Shown: piece by piece, positions 3,875 through 31,570 of the stretch
Position numbering within the stretch: the stretch's first letter is position 1
Layout of the letters: every line of letters starts with the position of its first letter
Assembly: GCF_019175385.1 (NCBI RefSeq)
Contig: NC_083341.1
Coordinates: 93,522,321 to 93,586,320, forward strand
DNA from: Lycium barbarum
Taxonomy: Eukaryota; Streptophyta; Magnoliopsida; Solanales; Solanaceae
Direction of reading: 5' to 3'
DNA: 64,000 nt
Notes under the pieces: generated by a model
Seen by the model: only the letters and a program-made list of their open reading frames with translations
The model's database searches: none
What the model was told of the DNA's origin: nothing
Position numbers and translations under genes: made by a program

Positions 3875-4041
3875 AGGTTCTCGGGGATTTTATAAAAATT
3901 TCGCCAGAGTTTCCCCTGTAATATGGCACTACCATCCTGTCACAACAGCCCATTATAACAATGTCTCACAAGGCCACAACATAATAGCAATAGAGTTTGG
4001 CCACATAGGACCCAAATGCATAAAAGGAAAACATACATACC
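3875..4041 (-). other. Element A post-pol 3' untranslated block
   Basis: Between the end of pol and the polypurine motif. It is recognisably similar to the equivalent stretch of C (about 31590-31750), and to blocks inside D (about 24090-24240) and F (about 41800-41950) on their own strands. The shared landmarks are the words for gccctgtgaggcattgt and gcgaaattt. No ORF. Confidence 0.6.
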
Positions 4042-5259: not shown

Positions 5260-6452
5260 ATATATAGATTTAAGATCATGGTACATTTTCGTCACTCCAG
5301 GGTGAACAGAATAATGGGAGCAATGGGCTTCGCTCAATATTTGGTGGCATAAACCTGCCACATTAGGAACACATAATCTGCCTCGGCATTGGAGAAATCC
5401 GTCTCCTGCAAGCTCAAATGACTCCTCCTCCTTCTAAAGGAGTGTATCTCTGTAATGCATTAGCATGGAATCTTCGTATTTTCGCTCTTTCACTTCCGCT
5501 ACTAGCGACGAGACTGCTGAATTCTGAATGGTAGTTCCCCTGCTATCTGAGTCCACTACTCGAACTCCTAGGCTAGCTAATTGTTGGAGCTCACGAGCCA
5601 TTTTTCTCTTCTCTGGTCGTACATCATACAAACTTCCCATAGATCTACGGCTAAGAGCATCAGCCACAACATTTGCCTTTCCGGGGTGATATAAGATATC
5701 CACATCATAATCTTTTAGCAAATTCACCTCTTTCTGCTTGAAGATATACTGAAGGCTCTTATGATCTGTATAAATATCCACATGGACACCATATAAATAA
5801 TGTCTCCACATCTTTAATGCATGAATCACTGCAGCCAATTCTAGATCATGGGTTGGGTAATTTTTCTCATGTTTCCATAATTGCCTTGAAGCATACGTAA
5901 TCACCTTACCATGTTGCATCAACACACAGCCTAGCCCATTGCCTGAGGCATTGCAATAAACAACATATCCTTCCAATCCCTCTGGAAGTGTCAGGACTGG
6001 GGCAGAAGTCAATCTATCTTTTAACTCTTGGAAACTACGATCACAAGCATCTGTCCATTGAAACTTTGCTGATTTCTGGGCCAGCTTTGTGAGTGGTGCA
6101 GAAATAGAAGAAAAACCTTCAACAAATCTCTTGTAATAACCTGCTAAGCCCAGAAAGCTACGAACCTCCATAAGAGTTGTGGGCCTTGGCCAAGTCTTCA
6201 CGGCCTCAATCTTTTGGCTATCTACCCGAATACATCGGCTGAAACAATGTGCCCCAAAAATTTCACTGAGTTTAACCAAAATTGACACTTAGAAAATTTG
6301 GCGAATAGCTCTCGAGTTTGAAGAACTCTAAGGATAGTACGCAAATGTTCCGCATGTTCTGCCCCGGATCTAGAATACACCAAGATATCGTCGATGAATA
6401 CAATCAAAAATAGATCTAGGAAGGGCCTGGACACGTTGTTCATCAAATCCAT
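5257..6452 (-). pseudogene. Element A reverse transcriptase / RNase H (broken)
   Basis: Two overlapping frames. 6222-6452 carries the RT active site [11 protein letters not shown]. 5434-6288 carries the RT thumb ([22 protein letters not shown]) and RNase H. A frameshift near 6235 separates them. The first RNase H catalytic Asp is Asn here (VVYCNAS where C and I have or imply YCD). TAG at 5434-5436 truncates the frame before the integrase zinc domain, and the stop at 5257-5259 follows. Part of the connection domain lacks the usual LRQRRW stretch. Confidence 0.85.
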
Positions 6453-7657
6453 AAATACTGTCGTGCATTAGTTAGCCCAAATGACATTAGCCAGAACTCA
6501 AAATGACCATATCTTGTTCTGAAGGCTGTCTTAGGGATATCTTTCTCCCTAACTCTCACTTGATGATACCCGGACCTCAAATCTATCTTGGAAAGCCATT
6601 TGGCACCTTGGAATGGGTCAAATAAGTCATCAATCCTCGGAAGAGGATATTTGTTCTTAATCGTCACCTTATTCAATTGCCGATAGTCAATGCACATTCT
6701 CAAGGATCCATCTTTCTTTCGGACAAACAATACGGGTGCTCCCCACGGGGATGAACTAGGCCTAATAAAGCTTTTCTCAAGCAAGTCTTTCAATTGCTCC
6801 ATCAACTCTTTCAATTCTGCGGGAGTCATTCTATAAGGAGGAATAGATATAGGCTTAGTGTTTGGCAACACATCAATAACGAACTCAATCTCCCGCTCAG
6901 GAGGGAAGCCTGGAAGCTCTTCCGAGAACACATCCAAAAATTCATTTATTATGGGAACTGACTGAAGAGTCGGCGGTTCAACTTCTACATCTTGGACCCG
7001 AACTAGATGATAAATACATCCTTTTGTGATCATTTTTCTTGCCTTTAGATAGGAAATAAACCTAACTTTTGGTGACGCAGTATTCCCTTTCCATTTTAAA
7101 ACTGGTTCTCCCGGAAATTGGAAACGAACCATTTTCATTCTACAATCAACATTGGCATAGCAAGAAGTCAACCAATCCATGTCCATAATAACTTCAAAGT
7201 CTACCATTTTTAGCTCATGCAAGTCAATCATAGTACGACGGTCACAAACCACAACTATACAGTTTCTATATACTCGGCTAGCTACTACCGATTCACCAAC
7301 GGGTGTAGACACCTCAAAAGGTTTGATCGACTCTGGTTCGACTCTAAACCGACCCGCAATATATGGAGTAACATATGACAATGTGGAGCCTTGATCTATC
7401 AAAGCATATACATCATGAGAAAATACCGATAATATACCTGTGACCACATCAGGAGAAAACTCAAGATCTTGGTGTCCAGCCAAAGCATAAATACGGTGCT
7501 GAGGACCGCTAGAACTGGGGACTCTCCCTCTGCCTCTACCATGGCCGACTGGAGCATGTGAACCTGGCCCCATAGGGCGTACAGATGATGAAGATCTGAC
7601 TACCGACCCTGAAGGCTGGGTCCTACCTTTACCACCAACTGAGGGGCAATCACGCAT
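6443..7657 (-). pseudogene. Element A protease and N-terminal RT
   Basis: Open frame from just inside the zinc knuckle. The aspartic protease region is recognised by [18 protein letters not shown] (family active site D-x-G-S/T; the Pro seen in C and I is Gln here) and [15 protein letters not shown]. The RT start reads [18 protein letters not shown], then [18 protein letters not shown] and [18 protein letters not shown]. The Gln in YRQLN is intact here but is a stop codon in C and in I. A 1-nt loss near 6460, within the conserved LTNAPAVFM region, throws the frame. Confidence 0.88.
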
Positions 7658-8824
7658 AATATGGCCTGGTCGACCACATGAATAGCAAACCTCTGAACCC
7701 GATCGACACTGACCCCTATGTAACTTCCCACACTGGGAATATCATGGTATGGTTGGCCTCGCCTGACCCGAATCACCTCTGAACTGAGATCCCGAAAAAC
7801 TCTAACTCTGCCCGTAATGAGTAGATCTATCGAATCTATGGCCTGAAAACCGTGGAGGCGCACTAGTATTAGAAAGGCCTGAATGCCCAGAAAACTGTTG
7901 TCTGTGCCCGCCTCTAAACTCACTCATCGGACCCGAAGATCTAGCCCTCTTGCTATGTCCCCTATCATGCTCACGCTCACTTCTTTGTTGTTGTAGGCTT
8001 TCTTCTAAATTCTGAGCATGGGCCTGAATGCGTGAAATATCCATGTTATCCTGAAGGGACGCGGTCAAGCACCTATCCATCAAATGTGGCCCTAGGCCTT
8101 TCACAAATCGGTGCACTCGGTCACCCATATCCGCTATCATGGTCGAAGCATACCTGGCCAAAGAATTGAAGCGGAGACTATACTCTAGAGCACTCATGTT
8201 TCTTTGCCTCAAATTCAAGAACTTATCGGCTCTAGCTCGCCGAACTTCTGGAGGCAAATAATGTCGGAGGAAAGCATCAACAAACTCTTTCCATACCGGG
8301 GGAGGCGCATTGGCTCCCCGTGAAGCCATCCAAACCGTGTACCAATGAATCGCAACATCCCTCAATCTATAGGTCGCTAACTCCACCGATTCGGTGTCCG
8401 AAGTATGTATCAAGCGAAGCGTCCTTAACATTCCATCAATAAAATTCTGAGGGTCCTCATCCAGCTTCGATCCAAAGAATTCCGGAGGGTTCAAGCTAAT
8501 GAAGTCACGGGCCCTTCCACTAACGACCCTATCACCTTGCCTTGTACTTTGCCGCTGAGTCTGAGCAGCAACCAATTGAGCAAGCAAATGAATGACCTCT
8601 TTTACATCTTGGCCTGAAGCATCCGGTGGAGGAGCCGGAGGTGCTATAGCTGGGGCTGAGGCTCCCTCACGCTCCTTAGAAATAGGCACTGACTGGGAGG
8701 ACTGAGATTGAACCGCATTCTGGGACTCATTTTCCTCTACAACAGTTGGCGGTGCTCTTTCAGCCCACTTTTCTGCCACTGTCTTGCCCTTTTGGGCTGC
8801 CGTAGCCTTTCTCTTTACAAGCAT
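7658..8824 (-). pseudogene. Element A gag (capsid-nucleocapsid)
   Basis: The start is ATG at 8824-8822 (MLVKRKATAAQKGK), chosen because C and I start at the equivalent place just after a TTTTAG or TTNCAG acceptor-like motif. It has a low-complexity Pro/Ala N-terminus, then the retrotransposon gag capsid domain (FISLNPPEFFGSK ... ATYRLRDVAIHWY ... FLRHYLPPEVRRARADKF), a basic RS-rich linker and a zinc knuckle with [14 protein letters not shown] intact (CX2CX4HX4C). A frameshift near 7805 ends the first frame, and TGA at 7742-7744 (Arg CGA to TGA) lies just before the knuckle. Confidence 0.87.
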
Positions 8825-8937
8825 CTCTAAAATACACAATACACGGTTAAGGAGATGGAAGTTCTTATATCATAGCTCTATCGCACGATGTTATGAAGAA
8901 AGAAGGTCAATCATTCCTAAAATGCCCACAACCTCTT

Positions 8938-8970
8938 GTTTATAAGTGTGGCGTGCAACACAACCATAAC
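8938..8970 (-). ncRNA. Element A leader stem-loop (dimerization-type)
   Basis: On the minus strand the inner stem is GTTGTG/CACACT around the 8-nt loop TTGCACGC, with an outer arm pairing toward GTTTAT/ATAA. The loop differs by one G-to-A change from the self-complementary GCGCGC of C and F, so A's copy is probably a decayed form. It lies about 50-80 nt from the primer site. Confidence 0.5.
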
Positions 8971-9017
8971 CAAGACTCTACTGGACACATCTCGTAGACA
9001 CACCCTAGGACAAAACT

Positions 9018-9029
9018 GCTCTGATACCA
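9018..9029 (-). promoter_or_regulatory. Element A primer binding site (tRNA-iMet)
   Basis: The minus strand reads TGGTATCAGAGC, complementary to the 3' end of plant initiator methionine tRNA. It lies four bases inside the 5' LTR, as expected. Confidence 0.92.
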
Positions 9030-9033
9030 CTTT

Positions 9034-11648
9034 TGTCACGACCCAACAGGAGGGCCGCGACGGGCACCCGGTGCTAGCCCACCCGGGCACCTCTTATCAT
9101 ACCTTTACATTTACATCTAGGTGAGCCACATATAAAATCATACATTTCTATTCATCAATCATACTAATCCCATTGGACAACAATACCTTTATATCAATAT
9201 TAGCAATTATGCCCATATCAATGTACATAAGCCGATGAGGCTAACAAAATAACGTCCAAAATATAGGCCGACAAGGCCAAACACATCTAAACATATACAT
9301 ATGTCTACGAGCCTTTAAGGAGAGTATGTCATGTCATATAGGTGGCACAGGACCCCGCTATGCCCATAAATATGTACACAAAATAATAAGTACCAAAAGC
9401 TATAACTCCGAATGAGATGGAGCTCCGCTATGTAGTCCCTGAGAAATATAGATATGGATCAAGCCTGTCTCCCTGGCTACCTGCGGGCATGACGCAGCCT
9501 CCACAAACAAAAGGACGTCAGTACAAAGAATGTACTGAGTATGTAAACCATGATCAATATAAATATAGAAGCATAATAAGCAACATAAGAAATAGCATAA
9601 AATGCGAGATAGTAGTATCAATATCATAAGCACTTACTTGCCCTTCATAGGGACCTTCCGTTTCTAGTGCGTGATTGTGTACATACGTCCGTATCCATAT
9701 TCGTATTCATATCTGTACTTATTTACATTCATATCCATAATCGTATTCTTATACACATTCTTATTCATATTTGTATCATTTCCGTATTCATACTCATATC
9801 TATATCATATACATATCGATATCATGTACATATCCATATCATATACATATCATTTACATAGCATACCCGACTACGAAGGTTCGGTGTTTCTCGTACCCGA
9901 CCATGGTTAGGCTCGGTGATTACACATACCTGGCCAACCAAGGCTCAGTTTTACACATACCTGGCCCTACCAAGGCTCAGTGTTATCCGTACCCAACTGC
10001 AGTGGTGCGCACGCATCGTCATATAAATATATATACATCTATATATTCTACTCGGCCATATAAGCTCGGGGTTTTTATAATAGCCATACATAGGCACACA
10101 TACATATAAGCTCATAGGCGTCATTAGCATTATCACTACTATCGTCGTCATCATTATCGTTATCGCTATTATCGTCGTCATCATTATCATCATTACCATT
10201 ATCTTCATTCATTACGTCTATCCTTATAGGATTATTCGTCATATGAGGAATTTAGTACAATCGCAATACATATCAAGGATTATAAGGTTTGTAGCTTTTT
10301 GAAGATAGAATCATTTGGAGCGCATCATAGGCTCATAGAAGAATAGATATTTGGCTAAAGAACCATTCCTTATGAAAGAAGGGTTAGCCTTACATACCTT
10401 TCCGTTCAACTATTTATCACTTCCACGTTCTCCTTCAATGCTCACGTTTCTACCTTCATTAGAGTTATACTATCATTAGAAAACCGATAGCTAGCATACA
10501 TGACTAAGGCTAGAGAAAATTGGACAGCATCTCCTTTATTTATACAACATTCCTACATATCGTAAATCAACTCCCGATCGTCAATAATACATTCACAATA
10601 TCATAACAATAGTCTTCATTTATCCACATTATCTATATTTCTCAATTCACCTCCAATCACCCATATCCATGGTCATAACACACGACTACGTTCATTTATG
10701 TACATTGCCTATCCCATGTTCTTAACATCATTAATAACATATCCATATCACAACACATCAAGAATCATGACTCAATTCAAGCTATTACTCAAAATGGCAC
10801 TATTTCCACATTCATGACCCATTTTTCTGTATCTTTCCACAATCCAAGTGTTTCAACTTTCAAATACCTTAAACAACATGGAAATACCATAAATCTTACC
10901 TTATATTGTGTAGGGATGAACCTTGGGTGAAAATACCTCACTTGAGCAAAACCCTAGTTTCAACTTCACTTGGATGAACTTTAATGGGTTTCTTACACTT
11001 GATTCACTTAGTTTGATGTTGTTGATCACTAATATCTCTTGAATTCTTGTGGGAGAAGTGTAGAGAGATGTTTTAGAGAGAAGGGGTGTGAATGGAAATG
11101 AAATGAAATAAGACTTGGATCCCTCATTAAATACACCAAATCTGTCCCGACCAGTTCTACGGACCAACATACGGCCAGTAAAAATTATACTGACCGTATG
11201 TCTGGCCGTAGATTTGGTCCAGAGAGAGGTGCTAATATGGGATGATTATGCGGTCCAACATACGGTCCGTATGTTTTATACGGCCAGTATGGTTGGCCGT
11301 ATAATCCCCAGTTTTTTCGAAGTTCGTCGTCGTCGACTCGTTTGATCTCCAATCCTTATGAAACCTTCTTAGCACTTGTTTATCACCTTATTAACAATCT
11401 AAGGGACGTTATATCTCTTCTCCAAAGCATTATTAAGTCCTCGTTAACTTGTCACTCATAATTCTTTTTCGATACCTATTATAAGCCTTGCCTTCTCTTG
11501 GAAAACTTTCTTCCCTTATCTGGAACGTCTTTGAAATTGTAATTAGGGTCATCAAATGTCATTCCTTACTTATCGAAATATCGTATACTTCGTGCTCTTC
11601 GTTAGTCTATTCACTGTGCATCAACGGAAAATTTTCCAAGGTGTAACA
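9034..11648 (-). repeat. Element A 5' LTR
   Basis: 2615 bp, the promoter-bearing copy for the minus-strand transcript. It contains the palindrome at 9519-9537, the short repeat array at about 9866-10075, and donor-like sites corresponding to those in the 3' LTR. Relative to its partner it has an extra stretch near 9595-9650. Confidence 0.9.
9519..9537 (-). promoter_or_regulatory. CAGTAC-N7-GTACTG palindrome, A 5' LTR
   Basis: CAGTACaaagaatGTACTG, perfect arms. The neighbouring GGAC/GTCC-type second hairpin is better kept here than in the 3' LTR. Confidence 0.6.
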
Positions 11649-15975: not shown

Positions 15976-18423
15976 TGTGACACCTCAAAAAATTTTCCGA
16001 ATAGACCAACGAAGAGTATGAGTGTACGACGTTTTACTAAGAAGGGAATGACTACCCATGAGTTTTGAAAACGCGAAGGTTGCAGATTTGCATTGTGACC
16101 CAGTGGTCGTAAAACACAATACAGCCCGTAAAGTGATTTACGGACCGTAAAGTGCCATCGTCTTCCAACTATCAAAACTTTAACTTTCTGTCAAATGTTG
16201 AAATGGTTAAATACGACTCAGAATACGGACCGTAAATCGAAATACGGCCCGTAAACTGTGACCGTAAACCACCATGATCTACAGCAAACCTTTCTGTTTC
16301 TGATATGCTTAAATACGGTCATGAAGGACGGACCGTAAACCAGAATACGGCCCGTAAACTGGGTTTACGGCTACTGTGCATCCCGACTACTATTCACAAA
16401 AATCAGATTTTTAAGTTAAGTATAAGGGACCCCAAGCTCATTTTATTTCATTTCTCATCTTCACAATTCAAGAGCTCTCTAGTATACTCCAAAACACTTC
16501 ATCCACAAGAATTCAAGAGAATCAAGGGAAAATCAAGATCAACAATGCCAAATTCATGAAAACAAGAGTGTGAAACCTAGCTCAAGTTCATCTTCCTCAA
16601 AGAAAACTAAAAGAGGTGAAGTAGGGTTTTGGTGCTAGAGTATAAACTCCACTCAAGGCTTGTTCCACCATCATCCAAGGTAAGTTTCATGACCATTTCA
16701 TGTTATTTAAGGTATTGGAAGGTTAAGATACCCGAATTGTAGAAAAGCATAGTAAATGGGTCATAAATGAGTGAATAGTGCCATGAGTGAATGGTAGTTG
16801 AATTGAATCATGAATGTTAGTGTGTTGTGAGTATGAATGCGTTATAAATGACATGTAGACCAGGAGATAAAGTGTGATACATGAGAAAATACGATAGCGG
16901 ACCCAAAACCATAAATGTGGGAAAAATGAAGAGAAATGGTGGATCATGGTCATTGTATATGAATGATGATTGTTGATTGCTATATTATAATTGTTGTTGT
17001 GGGTGTTGGGAGTTGATATGGAATATGGGAAAAATAGTATAAACAAAGGAAGTGCTTCCCAATTGTCTCTAGAAATAGTGGTGCGTTCTTATAGTTGATT
17101 AACTAACGTTGGTACGAATCCTCTTTTGAAGGTAGAGACGTGACATTGAAGGAGAATAAGCAAATGCTAGATTGCTTAAACGAGAAAGGTATGTGAGGCT
17201 TAACTCTTCTTTCAAAAGGAATTAATTCTTCAAGTTTTCCATAATCCTCCTATAAGATGAAGCTTATGAGTCCTTCTATATATCGAATCATCTATAAGCA
17301 TGATAATAATGACAATAAGCTAGAGTATAGAGATTCAAGAAATTGTGGCACGATGTTCCTACAATGCTAATGATGTTATTATCGTTAACACACGCCTTAT
17401 GTTTTATTTCCTTCAAGGCGAGGAATAATACTCATGATATGTCCATAATACAATCGGGGGTTCACGACCTTACGTCACCTCAACATAGTGTGGTTTCCTT
17501 AAAGCCTAATGTATGCTCCTAACGCTAATGTATGCTATGAGATGTGTAATAGTGATGTATTATGATTGATTTTGTGATGATATGATTCCACCGCGCCCAT
17601 ATGGCCGGGCATGTCAACGCTAATGCGGGCTGTGTATGATTCCACCGCGCCTATATGGCTGGCCATGTCACCGCTAATGCGGGCTGCTATGTTTACACCG
17701 AGCCTAGAGGGCCGGGCATGATCACCACTAGTGGGCGGCATATGAGGGTTACCTGGCCGCGGGTAACGATGCGGATTATAATGTGAGGATGTATGTGATG
17801 ACGTATATGACGTATATGATGATGTATGTGATGATGTACGGGATGTGATAGCATGTATACTATGATTATGTAAAATGCAATATATGTAGAGAGTATGTTA
17901 TCCATGATATACACTCAGGTTGTATCCTTCTCTCATGATTCCTGATCCCTCTATTATGTTTGTTTATTTCATTCTTGCCTTACATATTCAGTACAATATT
18001 CATACTGACGTCCGTTTTCTTTGGACGCTGTGTTCATGCCCATAGGTAGACAGGGAGGAGATCTTGCTCCAGATTCTTAGAGGCTGTTAGCTGACTGAAA
18101 GCACCCCATTGTCCTGGAGGTGCCTATGATGATTCTTTGGTGTACAATTGTAGATGTCATCTCATAGTGGCTCGGAGATACTTAATGTGGGTCATGTGGT
18201 GTCACGACATGGTCATTGTGTAAATATATACATATATATTATTTTGCTAGCCTAAGGGCTCATGTGTATAAAAACATTATGTTTCTAAAGGAAAACGGGT
18301 TTTCTTATAAATTGAGCATGAATCCGATAAATGATTGTTAAATAAACCTAAGGAGTACTAGTACGAGCGGTGCTCGGCGGTTAGCCTTGGGTACCCGTCA
18401 CGGCCCCTAGCCGGGTCGTGACA
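15976..18423 (+). repeat. Element C 5' LTR
   Basis: 2448 bp. It contains, in order, many ACGG(A/C)CCGTAAA-type short words near 16110-16380, a donor-like CCAAG|GTAAGT (GT at 16680-16681), a second AAAG|GTATGT (GT at 17189-17190), a three-unit GC-rich array at 17584-17745, and the palindrome at 17989-18007 with one damaged arm (CATACTG). It lacks roughly 80 bp present in the 3' LTR near 33350-33435. Confidence 0.92.
17584..17745 (+). repeat. Three-unit GC-rich array in C 5' LTR
   Basis: Units of about 54 bp built on CCGCGCC-TATATGGCCGG and GCTAATGCGGGCTG. The partner array is at about 33486-33650. It occupies the same relative place, upstream of the conserved palindrome, as arrays of other sequence in A, D, F and G. 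Confidence 0.7.
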
Positions 18424-18427
18424 AAAG

Positions 18428-18439
18428 TGGTATCAGAGC
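18428..18439 (+). promoter_or_regulatory. Element C primer binding site (tRNA-iMet)
   Basis: TGGTATCAGAGC, five bases after the 5' LTR. Confidence 0.93.
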
Positions 18440-18485
18440 AGTTCGGTCCTAGAAAGTGTCTACGAGCCGTGTCTAGTAGAGTCTT

Positions 18486-18518
18486 GTTTATGGTGTGTAG
18501 CGCGCCACATCAATAAAT
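18486..18518 (+). ncRNA. Element C leader stem-loop with GCGCGC loop
   Basis: The inner stem is GGTGTG (18492-18497) with CACATC (18506-18511), closing the 8-nt loop TAGCGCGC. The outer stem is GTTTAT (18486-18491) with ATAAAT (18513-18518). The hexamer GCGCGC (18500-18505) is self-complementary. It lies about 50 nt after the primer site and about 110 nt before gag. Confidence 0.65.
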
Positions 18519-18628
18519 AAAGGGCTACAGGGCATGTAGGAAAAATGAACATCTTTCTTCTTACGAAATCGTGCGATAGAGCCATGTATAAGATTTTATC
18601 CTCCCTAATAGTGCGTTATGATTTCAGA

Positions 18629-20052
18629 ATGCCGCCAAAGGGGAAAGCCACAGCCGCCTAGACGGGCAAGACTACGACAAAGAGGCGGGTAGAAAGAGAG
18701 CCTCCAATGAATATTGAAGAGGGTTAATCACACAACGAGGCCTTGTCTAATACTTCTTCTACCCCGCCTAATGTGGAAGAGCAAGGAGGAGCCCCAGCTC
18801 CAATTCCTCCGCCGGCTGCTTCGGGTCAACAAATGACTGAGGCCATCCAGTTATTGACACAATTGGTTGCCGCACAAGCACAACGACAGAATGTGGGTTC
18901 AAGCAACCGGGCAACAAGTACAAAGACCCGTGATTTTATGAGTCTAAATCCTCCGGAGTTCTTCGGGTCAAAGCCGGAGGAAAACCCACAAGGTTTCATT
19001 GATGAAATGTTGAGGGCATTGAAGATCGTCCATGCCTCCGAAACTGAATCCGTGGAGTTGGCATCCTATAGACTCCGGGATGTGGCGGTGTTATGGTACA
19101 ACAACTGGGTATTATCAAGAGGAGAGAATGCGCCTTCTCCGGTTTGGCAAGAGTTTGTAGATGCTTTTGTTCGTCACTACTTTCCACCCGAGGTCTGCCG
19201 AGCTAGAGCGGATAGATTTCTAAATTTGAGTCAAGGAAACATGAGTGCCCGGGAGTATAGCATGCGATTCAATTCTTTGGCTAGATATGCTCCGACTATG
19301 GTGGCCGATATGAGAGATCGGGTACATAGATTTATGAGTGGTTTGGGGCCACATTTATTCAGAGATTGCCTGACGGCTTCCCTGCAAAACGGGATGGACA
19401 TTTCCCGGATATAGGCCCATGCTCAGAATTTGGAGGGGCGACAACAACAACAAAGGGGTGATCACGACAGTGATAGAAGACAAAGTAAAAGGGCTAGATC
19501 TATGGGCACAGGCAGTGATTATAGAGGGGGATCGAGGCAGACTTATTCCCGACATTCAGGCCAGTCAGCGACTAGCGCACCTCCCAAATTTCCAGATAGA
19601 AGATTTGACCGCTCCTTTCACCCGGGACAGGGTCAGAGTTCGAGGGCCTCAGGTTCCTAGTTTGAGGGTGATTATAGTCAGAGGAGACCCCCAGTTCCAC
19701 GATGTAGTCGGTGCCGAAAATTACACTCAGGGCCATGTCATCAGGACACTAATGCTCGTCTGTTTGTGGGCAGACCGAACATTTTATGCGGGATTGTCCC
19801 TCGCGATATGACAGAGGTGGGGTTCAGCCCACAGGCTCAGTAGCGGGTTCCTCATCAGCACGCCCAGCGGGGCAGACTCCCCAGATGACAGCAGGCCGAG
19901 GTAGAGGCCGAGGGGCAGCATCTACTTCAGGTGCCACTCAGCCCCGTGTATATGCTTTAGCCGGACGGCAGGATCTCGAGTCCTCTCCGGATGTAGTCAC
20001 AGGTATACTGTTTATACTCTCCCGTGATGTGTATGCGTTGATAGATCCGGGT
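18629..20052 (+). pseudogene. Element C gag and start of protease
   Basis: The start MPPKGKATAA at 18629 lies directly after an acceptor-like TTTCAG. The capsid domain is clear in 18743-19414 (FMSLNPPEFFGSKPEENPQGFIDEM ... SYRLRDVAVLWY ... HYFPPEVCRARADRF). Stops replace Gln codons at 18659-18661 (TAG), 18725-18727 (TAA), 19412-19414 (TAG) and 19658-19660 (TAG). A frameshift near 19770 falls in the zinc knuckle, where the first Cys pair is lost. The frame ends with YALIDPG, the protease active site, at the exact place where D is inserted. Confidence 0.88.
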
Positions 20053-20624
20053 TGTCACGACCCAACCCCGTAGGCCGTGACTAGTGCCCGAGTTGGACAC
20101 TCATATTATCTATTAACTGTAGTCATTTGCAATTAGCATGTCATGATCTCATTTGTACACAAAAAAAAAATAGGACATTATTTTTAAGCTGTCAAGTTTT
20201 GTTTGTCTTAGGCACCTGTCTCCTGAGAAGTTTCACTTTTTAAACAACAACATATATATATATATATTCCTACGCAAGCCGACAAGGCTTCCACGATATA
20301 CAAAATAACAAACATACATACATATGCAAGCCGACAAGGCTGCCATTACGAATGGGTACGCCCCAAACATAAGTCATAGACGTAAAACGCATCAACAACT
20401 ACAAACAGACCCACACCGATGTCCACAGACCTCTAAGAGTAATGACCGTATCATATGGCGGGACAGGGCCCCGCCGTACCCGAATAAACACTTATATATA
20501 CAACAAAGGAAGTTATACCACAAGCTAGGCTCCGGAACAAAGGAGCAGTCCAAAATAGCTGAATAGGTATCCTAAGCCGGCGGATCTCCAAAACGAGCGT
20601 CTGTACCTGCGGGCATGAACGTAG

Positions 20625-20650
20625 CCCCCCCCCCCCCCCCCCCCCCCCCC
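20625..20650. repeat. Poly-C run (26) in D 3' LTR
   Basis: 26 consecutive C on the plus strand. The other LTR has 15 at 25281-25295. It occupies one arm of the second hairpin beside the palindrome (C-run, GAAGAAAG, then CGGG). Confidence 0.95.
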
Positions 20651-20663
20651 GAAGAAAGCGGGT

Positions 20664-20682
20664 CAGTACGGAATATGTACTG
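20664..20682 (-). promoter_or_regulatory. CAGTAC-N7-GTACTG palindrome, D 3' LTR
   Basis: CAGTACggaatatGTACTG, perfect arms, about 610 bp from the LTR 3' end. Confidence 0.6.
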
Positions 20683-20869
20683 AGCATGTAATGCTTGAAA
20701 CATAATAATAGACTTATATTGAGACAAGGTATGTAGGACTCAATGCAACAACCAGAATTTTCATAAAACTTGCCTTTGAACATATTCCATCTATATAATT
20801 CTCATATCAATGTCATTATAGAGTTTTGTAATCAAAGTTGCATAATCATTCTGTATATAACATATATAT

Positions 20870-21138
20870 CGTGTCCCGGCCCTTTAATGAGGGACTCGGT
20901 AATTATAATCATAGAATCATAAACATAAACATGTACGTGTCCCGGCCCTTTAATGAGGGACTCGGTAATAAGGAATATATGCCCTCCTGGCCGCCATCTC
21001 CATATCATAATATCATCACATTATCATATCATCATATCATCATATATATATATAACGTGTCCCGGCCCTTTAATGAGGGACTCGGTGAATAATGTAGTAA
21101 ACATGCGCATGAAAACGTGTCCTGGCCCGGGACTCAGT
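20870..21138 (-). repeat. Four-unit hairpin array in D 3' LTR
   Basis: Identical 31-bp units at 20870-20900, 20936-20966 and 21056-21086. Each begins CGTGTCCCGG, ends GGGACTCGGT and contains the inverted repeat CCCT-TTAATG-AGGG. A fourth, shortened unit is at 21116-21138. The same four units recur in the other LTR from 25515. Confidence 0.85.
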
Positions 21139-21969
21139 GAAGGATATAGCGGTAAGCACGAGCAGAATAATGAGCAACCACATATATGCAATTCATCTTT
21201 TTAGACTCAATGGATAAGAAACTAACCAGCTCTAAAGTGTCAAAATAATATTCATATTCAGTTCATTTTAAGTCTCATAACAAACTATTACAAGAAACGT
21301 TTCAGATTTCATGTACATGTATCACTTTAACATGATGTAGCTTTTAAAAGTCAAGTATGTCTCTAGTTGTGCAATTCTTTAAGAATAGGAACTTTCATGC
21401 ATTATTCATTAGTCACTCATATTGTAGGCACATGACAACAACCTTAATAAAATATAGAATCATAAGTCATACATGGAACTAGAGAATAGAATTTACCCCA
21501 AGGTTCATATTGTTTCATACTTACGTCTAGGACATGCCAAAAGAAAGAAGGAATAGGCTTTACATACCTTTAGCGTTTAGTCGTATTATAACTTGTACTT
21601 GCTGCCCAAAAACACTTATCCTATATCAAGATATCAAGAGCTACAATTAGTCTACGAGGGAATTCAATACGTACTTTAACGTCAACAATCCCTTTCAAAC
21701 ATTTAGACGACGTTTCGTTCGCATTCAAATCAACTACATACAACCACCCCAACATCAATAATCATATGTTCAATACCAATCCGGACAGCCCACATAACAT
21801 TCCAAATAGCCCACATTCACAACATTCCATAACGATTCACATACGGCTACTACATTCTCAAGTTACTCCTAATAATCCGTAGCCTTAACGTTTTCGTGTA
21901 ACAACTTTACAACAACCCAAACAACGTAAATACAATATATATTCTTAACTATCATTAGTATTTCCAATT

Positions 21970-22066
21970 TAAAGAATACAACATGTCCAAAACAGTTCCT
22001 AACCACAACACGTCCAAAACAGTCCCTAATCAACAACACGCCCAAAACAGTCCCTAACCAACAACA
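21970..22066 (-). repeat. Three tandem ~28-bp units in D LTR
   Basis: Three adjacent units with the core GTCCAAAACAGTCCCTAA. Further single copies of AAAACAGTCC follow, including the nested palindrome AAAACAG-TCCA-CTGTTTT at 22431-22448. The same arrangement is in the right LTR from about 26615. Confidence 0.75.
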
Positions 22067-23607
22067 TAAAGGTGCCCGGAATTCTTGCAAACGTTTACGA
22101 ACATACCAAGCAAACCACATATGATTCTTACATATTATTTCATGTCTTCATTTCATATAATTTCAGTAAAATACGACCAGCAGTCACACGATAAATATAT
22201 CACCAAATTCGTACGCAAATAGCTACATTGTCGACACTATAACCTTACAACGACAACAACATATTTAACAACATTACCTTTATGATTTTTGGAACTGTTT
22301 CAGCATCATTTTCATTCTTACAACAGCCCACAATTCATTCCAATTTCGACCTAAGTCATTGCTCTTCACTTTCACTAAACGTTCACAACAAGAATCAACA
22401 CTCAACACATACAAATTCATTTCTAGCACTAAAACAGTCCACTGTTTTGGACTGCTTATATGCTTCAACATAATTCATTTCTTTAACACCTTAATTCACA
22501 TATTCAACATGCACACAATACACCACAATGTCCATAACAACAACAATCAAAATGTGACACAAAACAGTCCACAAATTCCTCTAAAACAGCCCCCTCACAC
22601 GGCTTCAACACAACTACAACAACTTCATGATTTTCATTCATTTATCCATACTACAACACATTCAATCCATTTCCAATACATGTACAAGAATAATAAGCAT
22701 CATTTCACCTAAGTTTATAGCACACAGCCCACTTCAACTTCAACAACAACAGTCCCTAACTTACGATAACATCTAAGTCTGTATATCGCTTGTATATCAA
22801 CGTTTCCTCCATGTATACACCATATTAAACCTTTAATCCAAATTAATAACATGAGTAGGAGGTTGAAATTACCTTTAACAATCAGAATCTTCAAGAATCT
22901 TGTTCCTCTTTCCAGCTTCTTGCTTAACAACTAAAGGAAAACTTAGGCTACAACTTCTCTTTAACTAATATCGTGTCAAGGGTCTAGGATTTAGCTTATA
23001 TGATGGCTCAATTAGAAAGGGGGTTTGGGCGAGAAAATAAGGGTTCTTGGATCTGTTTAAGTCGTGTGAAGTGATATAGGGAAAAGTGGTGGCTTATATA
23101 TTAAGTTTAATGGGCCTCATGGGCCGAAATATGAGTGTTTGGGTCGGGTCCAAACTTGCTGCCCTGTCAGCCCAAATTACATCGTCCATATCTCCTCATC
23201 CCGATATCATTTTGATGAGCGGTTTGTTGCGTTGGAAACTAGACTCGATGAAATTAATTTTAGGCTTTTGAAAGACCTTAAAACTCCTCATATTCTAGGA
23301 GATATGCCTCCTACAATATAGGCTAAAATCGGGTCCGAAATATTTACTGAAGTTGTTCCGATTCATTTCGTTTAACTTCTAATCCTCTTCCAACCTCATG
23401 TAACCTCTTATACATACATATACACACTCATATACATACTCATAACATGATTTCAAATCCTTTAGGTTACCATGTAAGCTCGGGATACTTAAGGCAACCA
23501 TATATATAACGATATTCTTACTAACTCGACTAACTTTCCTTGAACCTTCATAACTCAATTTTTTCTTGTTTTACTTCAAGTAGCACGGATTATTATGGAG
23601 TGTAACA

Positions 23608-23643
23608 TACTTCCCCCCTTAGGAACATTCGTCCTCGAATGTT
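23608..23643 (-). promoter_or_regulatory. Element D polypurine tract and inverted repeat
   Basis: On the minus strand a purine run (TAAGGGGGGAAGTA) lies against the 3' LTR, preceded by AACATTCG-AGGA-CGAATGTT (23624-23643). Confidence 0.88.
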
Positions 23644-24542
23644 AAATTAGTGTTGTATAAGCATACTTAACCTGTTACCCTTCCTAGTCAATCTTATCCT
23701 TCACCACCTCACAGCCTGTCTTACCAATACATTCGCATCCGTCACAATTCATTTTTATCTGTACTCTCATCTTAATCATACTACTACTTCTTTTACTATA
23801 AACTCGTTATAATTTATCCCTGCTTATCAATTCAGTCGGTACCTTACTATAACACTTTATCAAGATTATCCAGCCTTTTCTAAACTATCTCTTAGTATCA
23901 TAAACCCTTTCCAAATTCTTCTTTTTACCATATCGATATCGACTTCCTAATTACTATTACCATCGATTCGGCAGTCGACTTATTTCTCGAGGTCATCCAT
24001 ATTGGAAACTTAGTCAAATCCTATCCTTACTATTGACACAACCTTTCAAAACATATTACAAACCTATACCTCATTCTCTTTTTCTATTTCTCGGAAAATT
24101 TGGGCAGAGTTTTCTCTGTACTTCTTACTATCCCAAAGCCTGCACGCAGGAAATACCAACAATGCCTCACAGGGCCAACATTTATACGTATATATCATAT
24201 CGTATCATAGCCACACAGAGCTCCCAATATCAACAACAATATAAAAATGATGAACATAACTCGTATGCCCTACTCAAACTGCACCTGTTATACTTTCTCT
24301 TTCAATTTTCAACTTTACATTTCAATCGCACTTCCATACCTTACTCGACATATACCTTTCATACCTTTGCTTACCTGCGTACTTTGGAACTTCCAATATC
24401 GTCAAACACTTTCTTCTGTCGATGTCGTTCTTCAGCTGAAATCAAATGTTAGTATAAAGAATTTCATTTCCTATGACTGGGCTCTATCGCACGATCTGTG
24501 ATATGAAAGAAAGGTAACATCCTAAATGCCCTGTAGCGTCCA
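23644..24542 (-). other. Element D non-coding interior, homologous to F
   Basis: No ORF with a known domain. Read on the minus strand it is collinear with F 41396-42400. Shared stretches include GAAGAACG...ATCGACAGAAGAAAGTG, the 3' block at 24090-24240, GATATCGATATGGTAAAAAG versus GACATTGATATGGTAAAAAG, and AGGGTAACAGGTTAAGTAT. The minus strand is purine-rich. This is a shared internal domain of two otherwise different non-autonomous families. Confidence 0.75.
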
Positions 24543-24576
24543 GTTTATAGATGTGGTGCACAACACACCGATAAAC
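24543..24576 (-). ncRNA. Element D leader stem-loop with GTGCAC loop
   Basis: On the minus strand the outer stem is GTTTAT/ATAAAC, the inner stem GGTGTG/CACATC and the 8-nt loop TTGTGCAC. The architecture matches element I. GTGCAC is self-complementary. D keeps this although it has lost all coding sequence. Confidence 0.65.
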
Positions 24577-24621
24577 AAGATTCTACTAGACACGGTCTGT
24601 AGACACTCCAAGGACGAACTG

Positions 24622-24633
24622 CTCTGATACCAC
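24622..24633 (-). promoter_or_regulatory. Element D primer binding site (tRNA-iMet)
   Basis: The minus strand reads TGGTATCAGAGC four bases inside the 5' LTR. Confidence 0.93.
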
Positions 24634-24826
24634 TTCTGTCACGACCCAACCCCGTTGGCCGTGACTAGTGCCCGAGTTGGACACTCATATTATCTATTAA
24701 CTGTAGTCATTTGCAATTAGCATGTCATGATCTCATTTGTACACAAAAAAAAAATAAGACATTATTTTTAAGCTGTCAAGTTTTGTTTGTCTTAGGCACC
24801 TGTCTCCTGAGGAGCTTCACTTTTTA

Positions 24827-24835
<9 letters not shown>

Positions 24836-24924
<89 letters not shown>
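24836..24924. repeat. (AT)n microsatellite in D 5' LTR
   Basis: About 89 bp of pure AT dinucleotide. The same spot in the 3' LTR (about 20248-20268) has only about 20 bp. Because LTRs are identical at insertion, the expansion is younger than the insertion or is an assembly effect. Confidence 0.95.
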
Positions 24925-24925
<1 letters not shown>

Positions 24926-25308
24926 CTACGCAAGCCGACAAGGCTGCCACGATAAACAAAATAACAAACATACATACATATGCAAGCCGACAAGGCTGCC
25001 ATTACGAATGGGTACGCCCCAAACATAAGTCATAGACGTAAAACGCATCAACAACTACAAACAGACCCACACCGATGTCCACAGACCTCTAAGAGTAATG
25101 ACCGTATCATATGGCGGGACAGGGCCTCGCCGTACCCGAATAAACACTTATATATACAACAAAGGAAGTTATACCACAAGCTAGGCTCCGGAACAAAGGA
25201 GCAGTCCAAAATAGCTGAATAGGTATCCTAAACCGGCGGATCTCCAAAACGAGCGTCTGTACCTGCGGGCATGAACGTAGCCCCCCCCCCCCCCCGAAGA
25301 AAGCGGGT

Positions 25309-25327
25309 CAGTACGGAATATGTACTG
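25309..25327 (-). promoter_or_regulatory. CAGTAC-N7-GTACTG palindrome, D 5' LTR
   Basis: CAGTACggaatatGTACTG, identical to the 3' LTR copy. Confidence 0.6.
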
Positions 25328-28253
25328 AGCATGTAATGCTTGAAACATAATAATAGACTTATATTGAGACAAGGTATGTAGGACTCAATGCAACAACCAG
25401 AATTTTCATAAAACTTGCCTTTGAACATATTCCATCTATATAATTCTCATATCAATGTCATTATAGAGTTTTGTAATCAAAGTTGCATAATCATTCTGTA
25501 TATAACATATATATCGTGTCCCGGCCCTTTAATGAGGGACTCGGTAATTATAATCATAGAATCATAAACATAAACATGTACGTGTCCCGGCCCTTTAATG
25601 AGGGACTCGGTAATAAGGAATATATGCCCTCCTGGCCGCCATCTCCATATCATAATATCATCACATTATCATATCATCATATCATCATATATATATATAA
25701 CGTGTCCCGGCCCTTTAATGAGGGACTCGGTGAATAATGTAGTAAACATGCGCATGAAAACGTGTCCTGGCCCGGGACTCAGTGAAGGATATAGCGGTAA
25801 GCACGAGCAGAATAATGAGCAACCACATATATGCAATTCATCTTTTTAGACTCAATGGATAAGCAACTAACCAGCTCTAAAGTGTCAAAATAATATTCAT
25901 ATTCAGTTCATTTTAAGTCTCATAACAAACTATTACAAGAAACGTTTCAGATTTCATGTACATGTATCACTTTAACATGATGTAGCTTTTAAAAGTCAAG
26001 TATGTCTCTAGTTGTGCAATTCTTTAAGAATAGGAACTTTCATGCATTATTCATTAGTCACTCATATTGTAGGCACATGACAACAACCTTAATAAAATAT
26101 AGAATCATAAGTCATACATGGAACTAGAGAATAGAATTTACCCCAAGGTTCATATTGTTTCATACTTACGTCTAGGACATGCCAAAAGAAAGAAGGAATA
26201 GGCTTTACATACCTTTAGCGTTTAGTCGTATTATAACTTGTACTTGCTGCCCAAAAACACTTATCCTATATCAAGATATCAAGAGCTACAATTAGTCTAC
26301 GAGGGAATTCAATACGTACTTTAACGTCAACAATCCCTTTCAAACATTTAGACGACGTTTCGTTCGCATTCAAATCAACTACATACAACCACCCCAACAT
26401 CAATAATCATATGTTCAATACCAATCCGGACAGCCCACATAACATTCCAAATAGCCCACATTCACAACATTCCATAACGATTCACATACGGCTACTACAT
26501 TCTCAAGTTACTCCTAATAATCCGTAGCCTTAACGTTTTCGTGTAACAACTTTACAACAACCCAAACAACGTAAATACAATATATATTCTTAACTATCAT
26601 TAGTATTTCCAATTTAAAGAATACAACATGTCCAAAACAGTTCCTAACCACAACACGTCCAAAACAGTCCCTAATCAACAACACGCCCAAAACAGTCCCT
26701 AACCAACAACATAAAGGTGCCCGGAATTCTTGCAAACGTTTACGAACATACCAAGCAAACCACATATGATTCTTACACATTATTTCATGTCTTCATTTCA
26801 TATAATTTCAGTAAAATACGACCAGCAGTCACACGATAAATATATCACCAAATTCGTACGCAAATAGCTACATTGTCGACACTATAACCTTACAACGACA
26901 ACAACATATTTAACAACATTACCTTTACGATTTTTGGAACTGTTTTAGCATCATTTTCATTCTTACAACAGCCCACAATTCATTCCAATTTCGACCTAAA
27001 TCATTGCTCTTCACTTTCACTAAACGTTCACAACAAGAATCAACACTCAACACATACAAATTCATTTCTAGCACTAAAACAGTCCACTGTTTTGGACTGC
27101 TTATATGCTTCAACATAATTCATTTCTTTAACACATTAATTCACATATTCAACATGCACACAATACACCACAATGTCCATAACAACAACAATCAAAATGT
27201 GACACAAAACAGTCCACAAATTCCTCTAAAACAGCCCCCTCACACGGCTTCAACACAACTACAACAACTTCATGATTTTCATTCATTTATCCATACTACA
27301 ACACATTCAATCCATTTCCAATACATGTACAAGAATATTAAGCATAATTTCACCTAAGTTTATAGCACACAGCCCACTTCAACTTCAACAACAACAGTCC
27401 CTAACTTACGATAACATCTAAGTCTGTATATCGCTTGTATATCAACGTTTCCTCCATGTATACACCATATTAAACCTTTAATCCAAATTAATAACATGAG
27501 TAGGAGGTTGAAATTACCTTTAACAATCAGAATCTTCAAGAATCTTGTTCCTCTTTCCAGCTTCTTGCTTAACAACACAAGGAAAACTTAGGCTACAACT
27601 TCTCTTTAACTAATATCATGTCAAGGGTCTAGGATTTAGCTTATATGATGGCTCAATTAGAAAGGGGGTTTGGGAGAGAAAATAAGGGTTCTTGGATCTG
27701 TTTAAGTCGTGTGAAGTGATATAGGGAAAACTGGTGGCTTATATATTAAGTTTAATGGGCCTCATGGGCCGAAATATGAGTGTTTGGGTCGGGTCCAAAC
27801 TTGCTGCCCTGTCAGCCCAAATTGCATCGTCCATATCTCCTTATCCCGATATCATTTTGATGAGAGGTTTGTTGCGTTGGAAACTAGACTCGATGAACTT
27901 AATTTTAGGCTTTTGAAAGACCTTAAAACTCCTCATATGCTAGGAGATATGCCTCCTACAATATAGGCTAAAATCGGGTCCGAAATTTTTACTGAAGTTG
28001 TTCCGATTCATTTCGTTTAACTTCTAATCCTCTTCCAACCGCATGTAACCTCTTATACATACATATACACACTCATATACATACTCATAACATGATTTCA
28101 AATCCTTTAGGTTACCATGTCACCTCGGGATACTTAAGGCAACCATATATATAACGATATTCTTACTAACTCGACTAACTTTCCTTGAACCTTCATAACT
28201 CATTTTTTTTCTTGTTTTACTTCAAGTAGCACGAATTATTATGGAGTGTAACA

Positions 28254-30199
28254 CGGGTTCTACATTCTCTTATATTACTCCATATGTTGCTGGTTGTATT
28301 GGGGTGAAACCCGAGTCAGTTAAACCCTTTCAGGTGCTTACTCCGGTTGGTGATCCCGTGATAGCAAGACAAGTGTACAAAACTTGTGTCATTGTGATAT
28401 GTGATCGACAGACCAAGGCCGATTTGATTGAGCTGAAAATGGTAGATTTTGATGTAATCATGGGTATGGATTGGTTGGCTTCGTGTTATGCAAATGTTGA
28501 TTGCCGCACAAAAGTGGTTCGATTTCAATTTCCAGGAGAGCCCGTGCTTGAATGGAAAGGTAATGCAGCATCGCCAAAGGGTAGGTTTATTTCCTATCTT
28601 AAGGCAAGGAAGATGATAGCCAAGGGTTATATTTATCACTTAGTTTGGGTTCATGACACCGAGGCAAAGCCGCCAACTTTCCAGTCAGTTCCGGTAGTGA
28701 ATGAATTCCTAGATGTGTTTCCAGACGAACTTCCAGGACCTCCGCCAGAAAGAGAGATTGACTTCGCCATTGATGTATTGCCGGACACCAAGCCTATTTC
28801 TATTCCTCCTTATCGAATGGCCCCGACAGAATTAAAGGAGCTAAAGGCGTAGCTGAAAGACTTGCTCGAGAAAGGATTCATTAGACCCAATTCATCACCG
28901 TGGGGAGCACCGGTCTTGTTTTTGAGAAAGAAAGACGGTTTCCTGCGAATGTGCATCGACTATAGGTAATTGAACAAGGTGACGATAAAGAACAAATATC
29001 CTCTTCTGAGGATTGATGATTTATTCGATCAACTGCAAGGTTCCAAGTGGTTCTCTAAAATAGATTTGAGGTCGGGTTACCATCAAGTGAGAGTTAGAGA
29101 AGCGGATATTCCCAAAACGGCCTTCAGAACGAGATATGGCCATTATGAATTCCGAGTGATGTCATTCGGGTTGACTAATGCTCCGGCTGTATTTATGAAT
29201 TTGATGAACAATGTATTCCGGCCTCTCTTCGATCAATTTGTGATAGTATTTATTGATGATATTCTGGTGTATTCTCGCACGGAATCGGAACATGCAGATC
29301 ATCTGAGAATTGTTCTTGGTATTCTTCGAGCCCGAGAATTGTATGCAAAATTTTCAAAGTGTGACTTCTGGCTGAATTCTGTGACATTTCTGGGCCATGT
29401 CATTTCAAATGATGGTATTCGAGTCGACACTCAGAAAATTGAAGCTGTGAAGACTTGGCCAAGGCCTACGACGCCCACAGAAGTTCGTAGTTTCCTGGGT
29501 TTGGCAGGTTATTATAGGAGATTCATAGAGGGCTTCTCATCTATTTCAGCCCCATTGACGAAGTTAACCCAGAAGTCCATTAAATTTCAATGGAACGATG
29601 CTTGTGAACGCAGTTTCCAAGAGTTGAAAAATAAGTTGACCTCAGCCCCGGTTTTAACACTTCCAGAACGGCCAGATGGCTATGTGGTGTATTGTGACAC
29701 TTCCGGTGTCAGATTGGGATGTGTATTGATGCAGCATGGAAAGGTTATTGCATATGCTTCGAGAAAGTTGCGGAAGCCTGAAAAGAATTACCCAACTCAT
29801 GATCTCGAACTAGCTGCGGTCATTCATGCCTTAAAAATATGGAGACATTATTTGTACGGTGTGCACGTTGATATCTATACAGATCACAAAAGTCTTCAGT
29901 ACATCTTCAAGCAAAAGGAGTTGAACCTGCGACAGAGACGGTGGTTAGAATTATTAAAAGATTATGATGTTAACATTTTATACCACCCCGGGAAGGCGAA
30001 TGTAGTAGCCGACGCACTTAGCCGCCGATCAATGGGCAGTTTATGTGAAGTCCCTCCGGAAAGGAAAGAGATGGTTCAAGAACTTCATCGATTGACTAAT
30101 CTTGGAGTGCGTGTAATTGATTCGGGCAATGCCAGGATTAGTATAAATGATTCCACGATTTCGTCCTTGGATATGGAAGTGAAAGAACGGAAGTGTTAA
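28254..30199 (+). pseudogene. Element C protease, RT and RNase H
   Basis: Resumes directly after D with the duplicated CGGGT, restoring the frame of the protease active-site motif. Protease continues with [23 protein letters not shown] follows: [44 protein letters not shown] (active-site DD intact) and [12 protein letters not shown]. RNase H has [29 protein letters not shown] and [10 protein letters not shown], so its acidic residues are present. Gln codons are stops at 28850-28852 (TAG) and 28967-28969 (TAA). The frame ends at TAA 30197-30199, where related elements encode KYEDP. Confidence 0.92.
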
Positions 30200-31570
30200 G
30201 ATCCTCAGTTATGTCGTTATAGAGACACATCTCATGGGAAAGAAAAGTCTCCGTTTGAAGTTTCCATGGATGGGATTCTTAGGTGCCGAGGCAGGTTATG
30301 TGTGCCGAATGTGGCGGAATTGCGCTGATGAATTTTAGAAGAAGCACATTGCTCTCGATATTCTATTCACCCAGGTGCAACCAAAATGTATCATGATCTC
30401 AAGATGATGTACTGGTGGGATGGCATGAAGAGAGACATAGCAGAATTCGTAGCACAATGCCCAAATTGCCAACAGGTAAAAGCTGAACACCAGAAGCCGG
30501 GAGGCTTGTTGCAAGCAATGGAAATCCCTACTTGGAAGTGGGAAGTGACTCTATATGGGTGATCGTGGATAGGTTGACGTGGCAGGTATGACTCTATATG
30601 GGTGATCGTGGCAGGTATGACTCTATATGGGTGATCGTGGATAGGTTGACGAAAGCAGCCCATTTTCTTCCAGTTAGGACCATGTACTCAGCAGAAGACT
30701 ATGCAAGGTTGTATCTCAAAGAATTGTGCGACTCCATGGAATCCCATTATCTATTATCACAGATAGAGGAGCATAGTTTACAGCTAAGTTCTGGAAGCCT
30801 TTTGAAGAAGGTTTGGGCACGCAAGTGAAGTTTAGCACGGCATTTCATCCGCAAACTGATGGGCAGGCCGAGCGTACCATTCAAACCTTAGAAGACATGC
30901 TACGGGCGTGTGTGTTGGATTTCGGTGGTAGCTGGGATGACCACTACCCCTTATTGAGTTCGCATACAACAATAACTACCACTCAAGTATACAAATGGCT
31001 CCATATGAAGCTTTATATGGAAGGAAATGCAGATCTCCAATCGGATGGTTCGAAATAGGAGAAGCACAATTAGTGGGCCCCGAATTGATCCAACAAGCGA
31101 TAGAAAAAGTCCAGGTGATCCAAGATCGGTTGTTGACAGCCCAAAGTCGCCAAAAATCCTACGCGGACAACCGCCGACCAGACTTGGAATTTCAAATTAA
31201 TGATTGGGTATTTTTTAAAGTGTCACCCATGAAAGGGGTGATGAGATTTAGTAAGAAAGGGAAGCTAAGTCCCAGATACATTGGACCCTACAAAATCATC
31301 CGCAAGGTAGGTCATGTAGCCTATGAATTGGATTTGCCTTCGGAATTTGAATCAGTCCACCCAGTCTTTGATGTTTCGATGCTCCGCAAGTGTGTTGGAG
31401 ATCCCACAAATATTGTTCCGATAGATGATGTGCAAGTAACAGAAAGAAGTAGCGTCAGTCAAAGTATTGTGGCGAAACAACAATCGGGAAGAAATGACTT
31501 GGGAAGCGGAAGAGACTATGGAGTCCAAGCACCCACAGTTATTCCAACCCCCAGGAGAGATCCAAGATGA
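30200..31570 (+). pseudogene. Element C integrase and partial chromodomain
   Basis: The zinc domain is readable (HPGATKMYHD ... [16 protein letters not shown]) but is preceded by two consecutive TGA codons (30326-30331). The stretch that should carry the first catalytic Asp is replaced by a triplicated 21-bp segment (30548-30640). The second-Asp region survives (TDRGA), but TAG at 30774-30776 replaces the next Gln. FHPQTDGQAERTIQT with the catalytic Glu is intact. The C-terminal part 30995-31570 is open, but a shift after DVQVTE disrupts the chromodomain. Confidence 0.88.
30548..30640 (+). repeat. Triplicated 21-bp segment in C integrase
   Basis: Copies of the 21-mer running from ACTCTATATG to GATCGTGG are at 30548-30568, 30591-30611 and 30620-30640. 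They are joined by shorter flanking duplications including GGCAGGTATG. Intact relatives have one copy. Confidence 0.9.

Follow-up and report, generated by a model that had tools for sequence, protein, structure and literature searches.

Why should five LTR elements that are largely unlike elsewhere share a leader, and why should that leader, just past the primer site (PBS), present a palindrome in the loop of a predicted hairpin? The question is raised by the window, the whole 64-kb stretch of DNA analysed here, in which elements A, C, D, F and I have in common a perfect 12-base PBS, TGGTATCAGAGC, and the leader that follows it. We consider it probable that this hairpin serves as a site of dimerization initiation, where genomic RNAs would join loop to loop in preparation for packaging by Gag, and through which elements D and F would make use of a helper.

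The coordinates of the elements, their primer sites, hairpins and a second leader block are collected in the table. Gag and pol pieces lie between the LTRs of element A. Element I, whose LTRs are the most alike among the five, has matches (Pfam) to gag, protease, RT, integrase and, weakly, the chromodomain between them, with RVT_1 (4.5e-31) and SH3_Tf2-1 (1.4e-26) both above the Pfam cut-off, rve (3.1e-7) slightly below it and Chromo (23.2 bits for a cut-off of 25.1, E 6.6e-5) just below it. Element D is nested within element C on the opposite strand and has about 1 kb between its LTRs. An ORF scan of the internal regions of D and F found no open frame of 150 aa on the element's own strand, and the internal region of D has one 182-aa open frame on the opposite strand; as the preliminary description had it, the hairpin is nevertheless kept in both. 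A long (AT)n tract occupies positions 24836-24923, within one LTR of D.

Table. Positions in the window of the LTR elements, their primer sites (PBS), leader hairpins and second leader block
Feature	Position	Strand	Remarks
Element A	1264..11648	-	LTRs 1264-3838 and 9033-11648, 92.2% alike
Element C	15976..34325	+	LTRs 15976-18423 and 31797-34325, 90.3% alike
Element D	20053..28253	-	LTRs ~20053-23607 and 24637-28253, 98-99% alike in two pieces
Element F	38698..47636	+	LTRs 38698-41240 and 45120-47636, 92.6% alike
Element I	52335..63368	+	LTRs 52335-55266 and 60437-63368, 99.5% alike
PBS of A	9018..9029	-	0 mismatches
PBS of C	18428..18439	+	0 mismatches
PBS of D	24621..24632	-	0 mismatches
PBS of F	41244..41255	+	0 mismatches
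PBS of I	55270..55281	+	0 mismatches
Predicted hairpin of A	8928..8981	-	loop TTGCACGC 8958-8951 (TT+GCACGC), not self-complementary
Predicted hairpin of C	18476..18528	+	loop TAGCGCGC 18498-18505 (TA+GCGCGC)
Predicted hairpin of D	24533..24586	-	loop TTGTGCAC 24563-24556 (TT+GTGCAC)
Predicted hairpin of F	41292..41344	+	loop TAGCGCGC 41314-41321, same as C; weak fold
Predicted hairpin of I	55316..55369	+	loop TTGTGCAC 55339-55346 (TT+GTGCAC)
Block ATCGTGCGAT in C	18568-18577	+	
Block ATCGTGCGAT in I	55406-55415	+	
Block ATCGTGCGAT in D	24495-24486	-	
Block ATCGTGCGAT in A	8889-8880	-	

The hairpin lies in the 5' part of the genomic RNA, near the PBS and before gag, with the loop starting 58-60 nt past the last PBS base in all five leaders. 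These are the places where the preliminary description had put it, and the letters agree with that account, imperfectly in A, where the arms need a bulge. The description of a two-part stem closed by an 8-nt loop was right about the loop and too short for the stem, which has 20 pairs and runs from GUAG through a 2x2 internal loop to UCUUGUUUAU paired with its complementary arm, then a bulge or mismatch, then GGUGUG paired likewise, and the 8-nt loop. In element C the outer arms are GTTTAT (18486-18491) and ATAAAT (18513-18518) and the inner arms GGTGTG (18492-18497) and CACATC (18506-18511). In element I, GUAG and the 2x2 internal loop are followed by ten pairs of UCUUGUUUAU with AUAAACAGGA, a 1x1 mismatch and six pairs of GAUGUG with CACAUC, and the apical loop reads UUGUGCAC as RNA.

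Folded as 56-nt pieces, the five leaders range from strong to negligible: I reaches -24.7 kcal/mol (z -5.99, with 0 of 200 shuffles as low), D (-14.7 kcal/mol, z -2.41) and C (z -2.13) are moderate, F (z -1.21) takes as its best fold an alternative one with the hexamer partly paired, and A (z -0.35) is barely better than its shuffles. The inner-stem probability in a 400-nt context is 1.0 in I, 0.58 in C, 0.55 in D, 0.37 in F and 0.0 in A, and the hexamer is open at 0.98 in I and 0.66 in C. Rfam gave no match at gathering score in the window, and the seven weak matches from a loose search with the leader of I include no DIS family. We also asked how often chance supplies such a hairpin, using 4000 dinucleotide shuffles of each 200-nt leader and counting those with six or more stem pairs below a 6-10-nt loop that contains a palindromic hexamer. 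Between 137 and 201 of the 4000 shuffles pass per leader, so that the hairpin is not rare for one leader, and the real leaders, scored in the same way, give a stem of at least 6 in C, D and I, 5 in F and none in A. Because so many shuffles pass, and because the five leaders are related to one another, single-leader statistics were dropped as the main argument and the test must be supplied by the population of copies.

This population was drawn from the window's own 1.67-Gb genome with a pattern anchored outside the loop, which has 7,242 matches genome-wide and none when reversed; loops were read from the first 100 of the 7,242 matches listed, all of them on contig C1 at 6.6-41.8 Mb. In this sample, after one length-shifted copy was dropped, between 95 and 99 of the 99 copies have a standard pair at any given one of the 20 stem positions; the anchor fixes the 5' bases GTAGAGTCTTG, so that invariance in that part of the 5' arm arises by construction and information there comes from the 3' partners alone. 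Among the first 100 of the 7,242, nine hairpin types occur at least twice; their folds, which leave the loop unpaired, have energies of -23.3 to -26.8 kcal/mol. For 79 distinct copies the median fold z is -4.44, with 73 below -3, and only 46 of their 15,800 shuffles fold equally well. When 54 flanked loci are folded in a 400-nt context, the inner stem has a probability of at least 0.5 in 45 (15 of 15 GTGCAC copies and 18 of 24 GCGCGC copies) and an open hexamer is predicted for 48; the PBS stands just upstream in 53 of the 54, with 3 errors allowed.

The loops themselves fall mainly into two palindromic classes, as the preliminary description had proposed, with GCGCGC in 45 and GTGCAC in 30 of the first 100 of the 7,242 matches. 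The remaining loops in this sample are GCGTGC (6), GCACGC (5), ACGCGC (3), GTGCGC (3), ACACGC (2) and six that occur once; one of the six is GTGCAC in a length-shifted copy, and reading it by eye raises the palindromic total to 76. The first two bases of the 8-nt loop are TT in 88 and TA in 7 of the same 100. The two palindromic classes together account for 75 of the first 100. For individual families, relatives were taken as the best 40 of 3,113 (C), 3,327 (A) and 4,126 (F) candidates, and 29 of the 39 listed A relatives and 20 of the 39 listed F relatives were cut out for loop reading. The A relatives (from the best 40 of 3,327) have GCGCGC in 21 of 29, GCACGC in 3, GCATGC, also a palindrome, in 2, and GCGTGC, GTGCGC and GCCGCC in 1 each. 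The loop of A itself, GCACGC, does stand one transition, at a CpG, from GCGCGC, as had been noted, and it is a minority form among its relatives. The F relatives (from the best 40 of 4,126) have GCGCGC in 15 of 20, GCGTGC in 2, and GTGCGC, GCACGC and GCGCGA in 1 each.

To relate the loops to leader phylogeny, we built a tree with the loop masked from 53 of the 54 loci (the one without a PBS was dropped) and the five window leaders. It has two large clades, and GTGCAC is tied to one of them. Element F and locus L119, both of the GCGCGC class, are nested in the GTGCAC clade with support of 98/83 and 96/89, with the bootstrap unsettled and the F branch long; their position there implies that the class switched a second time or that pieces of leader were exchanged. 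The number of independent loop switches is small.

Methylated plant elements usually decay by CpG transitions, and GCGCGC contains two CpGs. The loop could then be free of selection altogether, GTGCAC being GCGCGC after two methylation-driven transitions in a single master copy that was later amplified. The single CpG transitions of GCGCGC, found in 15 of the first 100 of the 7,242 loops (GCGTGC 6, GCACGC 5, GTGCGC 3, GCGCAC 1), agree with such decay, as does the link of GTGCAC to one leader clade. One transition in each CpG leads, however, not only to the palindromes GTGCAC and GCATGC but equally to GTGTGC and GCACAC, which are not palindromic. We therefore counted four hexamers genome-wide in the fixed context GTGTGTT-hexamer-CCAC. 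These fixed-context (16-base) counts, which are raw pattern matches and represent copies, not independent events, are 11,397 for GTGCAC and 9,714 for GCGCGC, as against 78 for GTGTGC and 46 for GCACAC, an excess of GTGCAC of 146-fold and 248-fold; the reversed controls give 0 for GTGCAC, GCGCGC and GTGTGC and 1 for GCACAC. Neither GTGTGC nor GCACAC occurs among the first 100 of the 7,242 loops. The disparity indicates that GTGCAC is an amplified class and no residue of decay, and passive CpG decay as its source was rejected on these counts. Since copy numbers are not independent, one lucky founder could explain part of the GTGCAC excess, but F and L119 would demand a second class switch or an exchange besides, and we regard amplification of a decayed master copy, with no selection on the loop, as very improbable. 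Judged from these counts, the loop is under pairing constraint, and this genome may hold amplified loop classes beyond the two described here.

Pairing was also examined in an alignment of 61 distinct hairpins, made up of the 5 window rows and 56 of 71 distinct hairpins; the 15 not included belong to the C and A families. Within the loop, 95.1% of self-pairing cells are standard, compared with 90.1% in shuffles, and 13 cells are two-sided, compared with 3.9; none of 500 shuffles reaches either value. Two of the five loop measures lie within the shuffles, namely the pairs with two-sided change (reached by 278 of 500) and the pair types (270 of 500), and with the partners slid by -2 the loop is still 93.4% paired because the hexamer is internally repetitive. 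For the stem, the preliminary description had stated that the bases vary and yet stay paired. The pairing is clear (96.3% of cells, compared with 35-59% for slid partners), while the covariation is weak and only slightly above shuffles: two-sided change occurs in 3 of the 20 pairs, with 17 further pair types, values that 14 to 37 of 500 shuffles reach, and most of the variation is one-sided wobble from G-C to G-U.

Comparison of the elements within 1.5 kb of the PBS sets the leader apart. For A and D, and likewise for C and D, the alignment is confined to the leader (about -17 to +156), at 79-80%; D and I share a leader 87% alike and one 246-bp LTR piece at 73%. The remaining pairs share the leader and one or two further pieces, which are pre-PBS stretches or coding/internal stretches, the long coding/internal ones being 64-69% alike, and in A and C the leader and gag form one aligned piece. 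Likeness confined to the leader would be the trace expected of a cis signal used by several families, and an exchange of leaders between families would look alike. Such exchange, by template switching or recombination, would make the likeness a matter of recent transfer and imply no constraint, and it could draw as well on element F, in which a D-like leader is combined with a C-like loop. Between families, though, the leader pieces differ by 13-31% (the higher values come from aligned pieces that run on into coding sequence) and the stem and loop are still kept, and transfer leaves the persistence of the palindromes unexplained. As an account in place of constraint we find it extremely unlikely; it is also compatible with dimerization, because co-packaged RNAs recombine.

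In F, the stretch 41238-41343 has a leader closest to that of D and a loop and inner stem like those of C, a combination that possibly goes back to an exchange between co-packaged RNAs. Farther upstream, about 400-600 bp before the PBS, stretches of 60-111 bp in A, C, F and I are 76-82% alike within otherwise unlike LTRs, and possibly represent a promoter or RNA start. Just before the gag start, TTTCAG (18622-18627, + strand) and TTTGCAG (55460-55466, + strand) resemble 3' splice sites, and a similar sequence stands in the matching part of D (24441-24436, - strand), as though splicing of the leader were possible. Elements A, C, D and I have a further conserved block, ATCGTGCGAT, 60-63 nt past the loop; it is exact in 39 of the 54 loci (L070-L126), was not found in F, and as RNA is self-complementary with two central G-U pairs.

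The same block bears on another explanation, in which the leader would be a structured signal read by a protein, for Gag binding, nuclear export or translation control, with the palindrome incidental or suited to a dimeric protein, and with RNA dimerization proceeding without it. Conservation extends beyond the loop, to the long stem, the flanking leader and the downstream block, and in a mouse LTR element an intramolecular kissing-loop RNA structure is said to serve export (PMC12786077). A protein would nonetheless have to accept two hexamers that are both self-complementary and that differ at paired positions, and its binding would not account for the 146- and 248-fold excess of GTGCAC over the non-palindromic double transitions. 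We therefore hold this explanation to be rather unlikely and return to dimerization.

Known dimerization sites offer parallels. SL1 of HIV-1 is a leader hairpin between the primer site and gag, the same relative place as that of the plant hairpin. The HIV-1 DIS has a 9-nt loop with unpaired purines flanking the hexamer, and an internal loop; the plant loop, in contrast, has 8 nt (2+6), with mostly TT or TA before the hexamer and nothing after it, and the plant lower stem is longer and A/T-rich. Given this difference in loop make-up, we describe the plant hairpin as one that would work like a dimerization site and do not assign it to the HIV-1 family. In the yeast Ty1 element, which is of the Copia type, the kissing-loop palindromes differ from the plant hairpin in sequence and arrangement. 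What Ty1 shares with the plant elements is that it is an LTR retrotransposon, for which a kissing-loop model of packaged dimers is reported (PMC5454406). The likeness to SL1 would lie in an apical, GC-rich, self-complementary hexamer of the GCGCGC and GUGCAC classes: in vivo, most HIV-1 DIS loops are reported to carry GCGCGC, GUGCAC or GUGCGC (PMC5874298), so that the preliminary description was correct in naming the first two and GUGCGC is to be added. This HIV-1 set covers 78 of the first 100 of the 7,242 plant loops (GCGCGC 45, GUGCAC 30, GUGCGC 3).

Yeast Ty3 is nearer in kind, being a Ty3-type element with a palindrome, PAL6 (CUGCAG), at a hairpin apex, and deletion of one palindrome is reported to abolish dimers in vitro; PAL6 differs in its hexamer, its short hairpin and its place at nt 391, reportedly among palindromes of the GAG frame (PMC11381356), whereas the plant loop stands in the leader, 58-60 nt past the PBS. 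Barley BARE1/BARE2 provide a plant example of a Gag-less relative that is packaged in trans and is said to retain dimerization and packaging signals; these elements belong to the Copia superfamily, unlike the several Ty3 chromovirus-like families with the plant hairpin, and the portion of the account consulted contains no description of a hairpin (PMC3735527). By analogy with these systems, the best reading is that of a kissing-loop hairpin common to coding and apparently non-coding families, following a logic like that of HIV-1, Ty1 and Ty3.

How far does the feature reach? In IMG/VR, a pattern scan returned 9 stretches, all of which lack a leader with such a hairpin, and a second pattern scan returned 52 stretches, for which the 200 bases upstream contain no primer site; a protein scan returned no relatives. 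A search of genome contigs gave seven loci (L062-L068) with a Ty3-type RT at 48-84% identity in bacterial genome records, for example of Mycobacterium sp., Geminicoccus, Solirubrobacter and Labilibacter; these contigs are most likely contamination. A PBS is present in three of the seven, with leaders of two other types (L063/L064 and L067), and in both types the GC-rich palindromic hairpin is absent. The extension of the feature to plant chromoviruses in general was consequently too wide, and it applies here to one group of families. The statement that such a hairpin had not been described in plant Ty3 elements agrees with our searches of open-licence papers, whose best-ranked hits included no earlier description, and a term search for 'dimer' in a review from 2025 on the life cycle of plant LTR elements gave no occurrence (PMC12786077).

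From these patterns we infer RNA dimer formation, packaging by Gag and use in trans as follows. Past the primer site, the genomic RNA of these chromovirus-like elements would fold into the 20-pair hairpin and display a self-complementary GCGCGC or GUGCAC in its 8-nt loop. Two RNAs would then join through loop-loop pairing of identical hexamers, and the joined pair would be packaged by Gag. Elements D and F, which are without long open frames, would keep the leader because it admits their RNA to the particles of coding relatives. An extension that we consider unlikely is that the two loop classes function as RNA mating types, each pairing best with its own kind, so that class would set which families share particles and recombine. 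The non-coding families would in that case match the class of their helpers, D with I, while F, whose leader lies in the GTGCAC clade, would have moved to the GCGCGC class found in C and in the relatives of A.

RNA pairing and packaging in plant Ty3-type elements, and the entry of non-coding relatives into their particles, have seemingly been little studied. The hairpin offers a short, testable site for such work, with thousands of natural copies at hand, among which those with decayed loops are ready controls. If the dimerization reading is true, retroviruses and these plant elements would have arrived at the same two hexamers, which would point to physical limits on loop-loop pairing.
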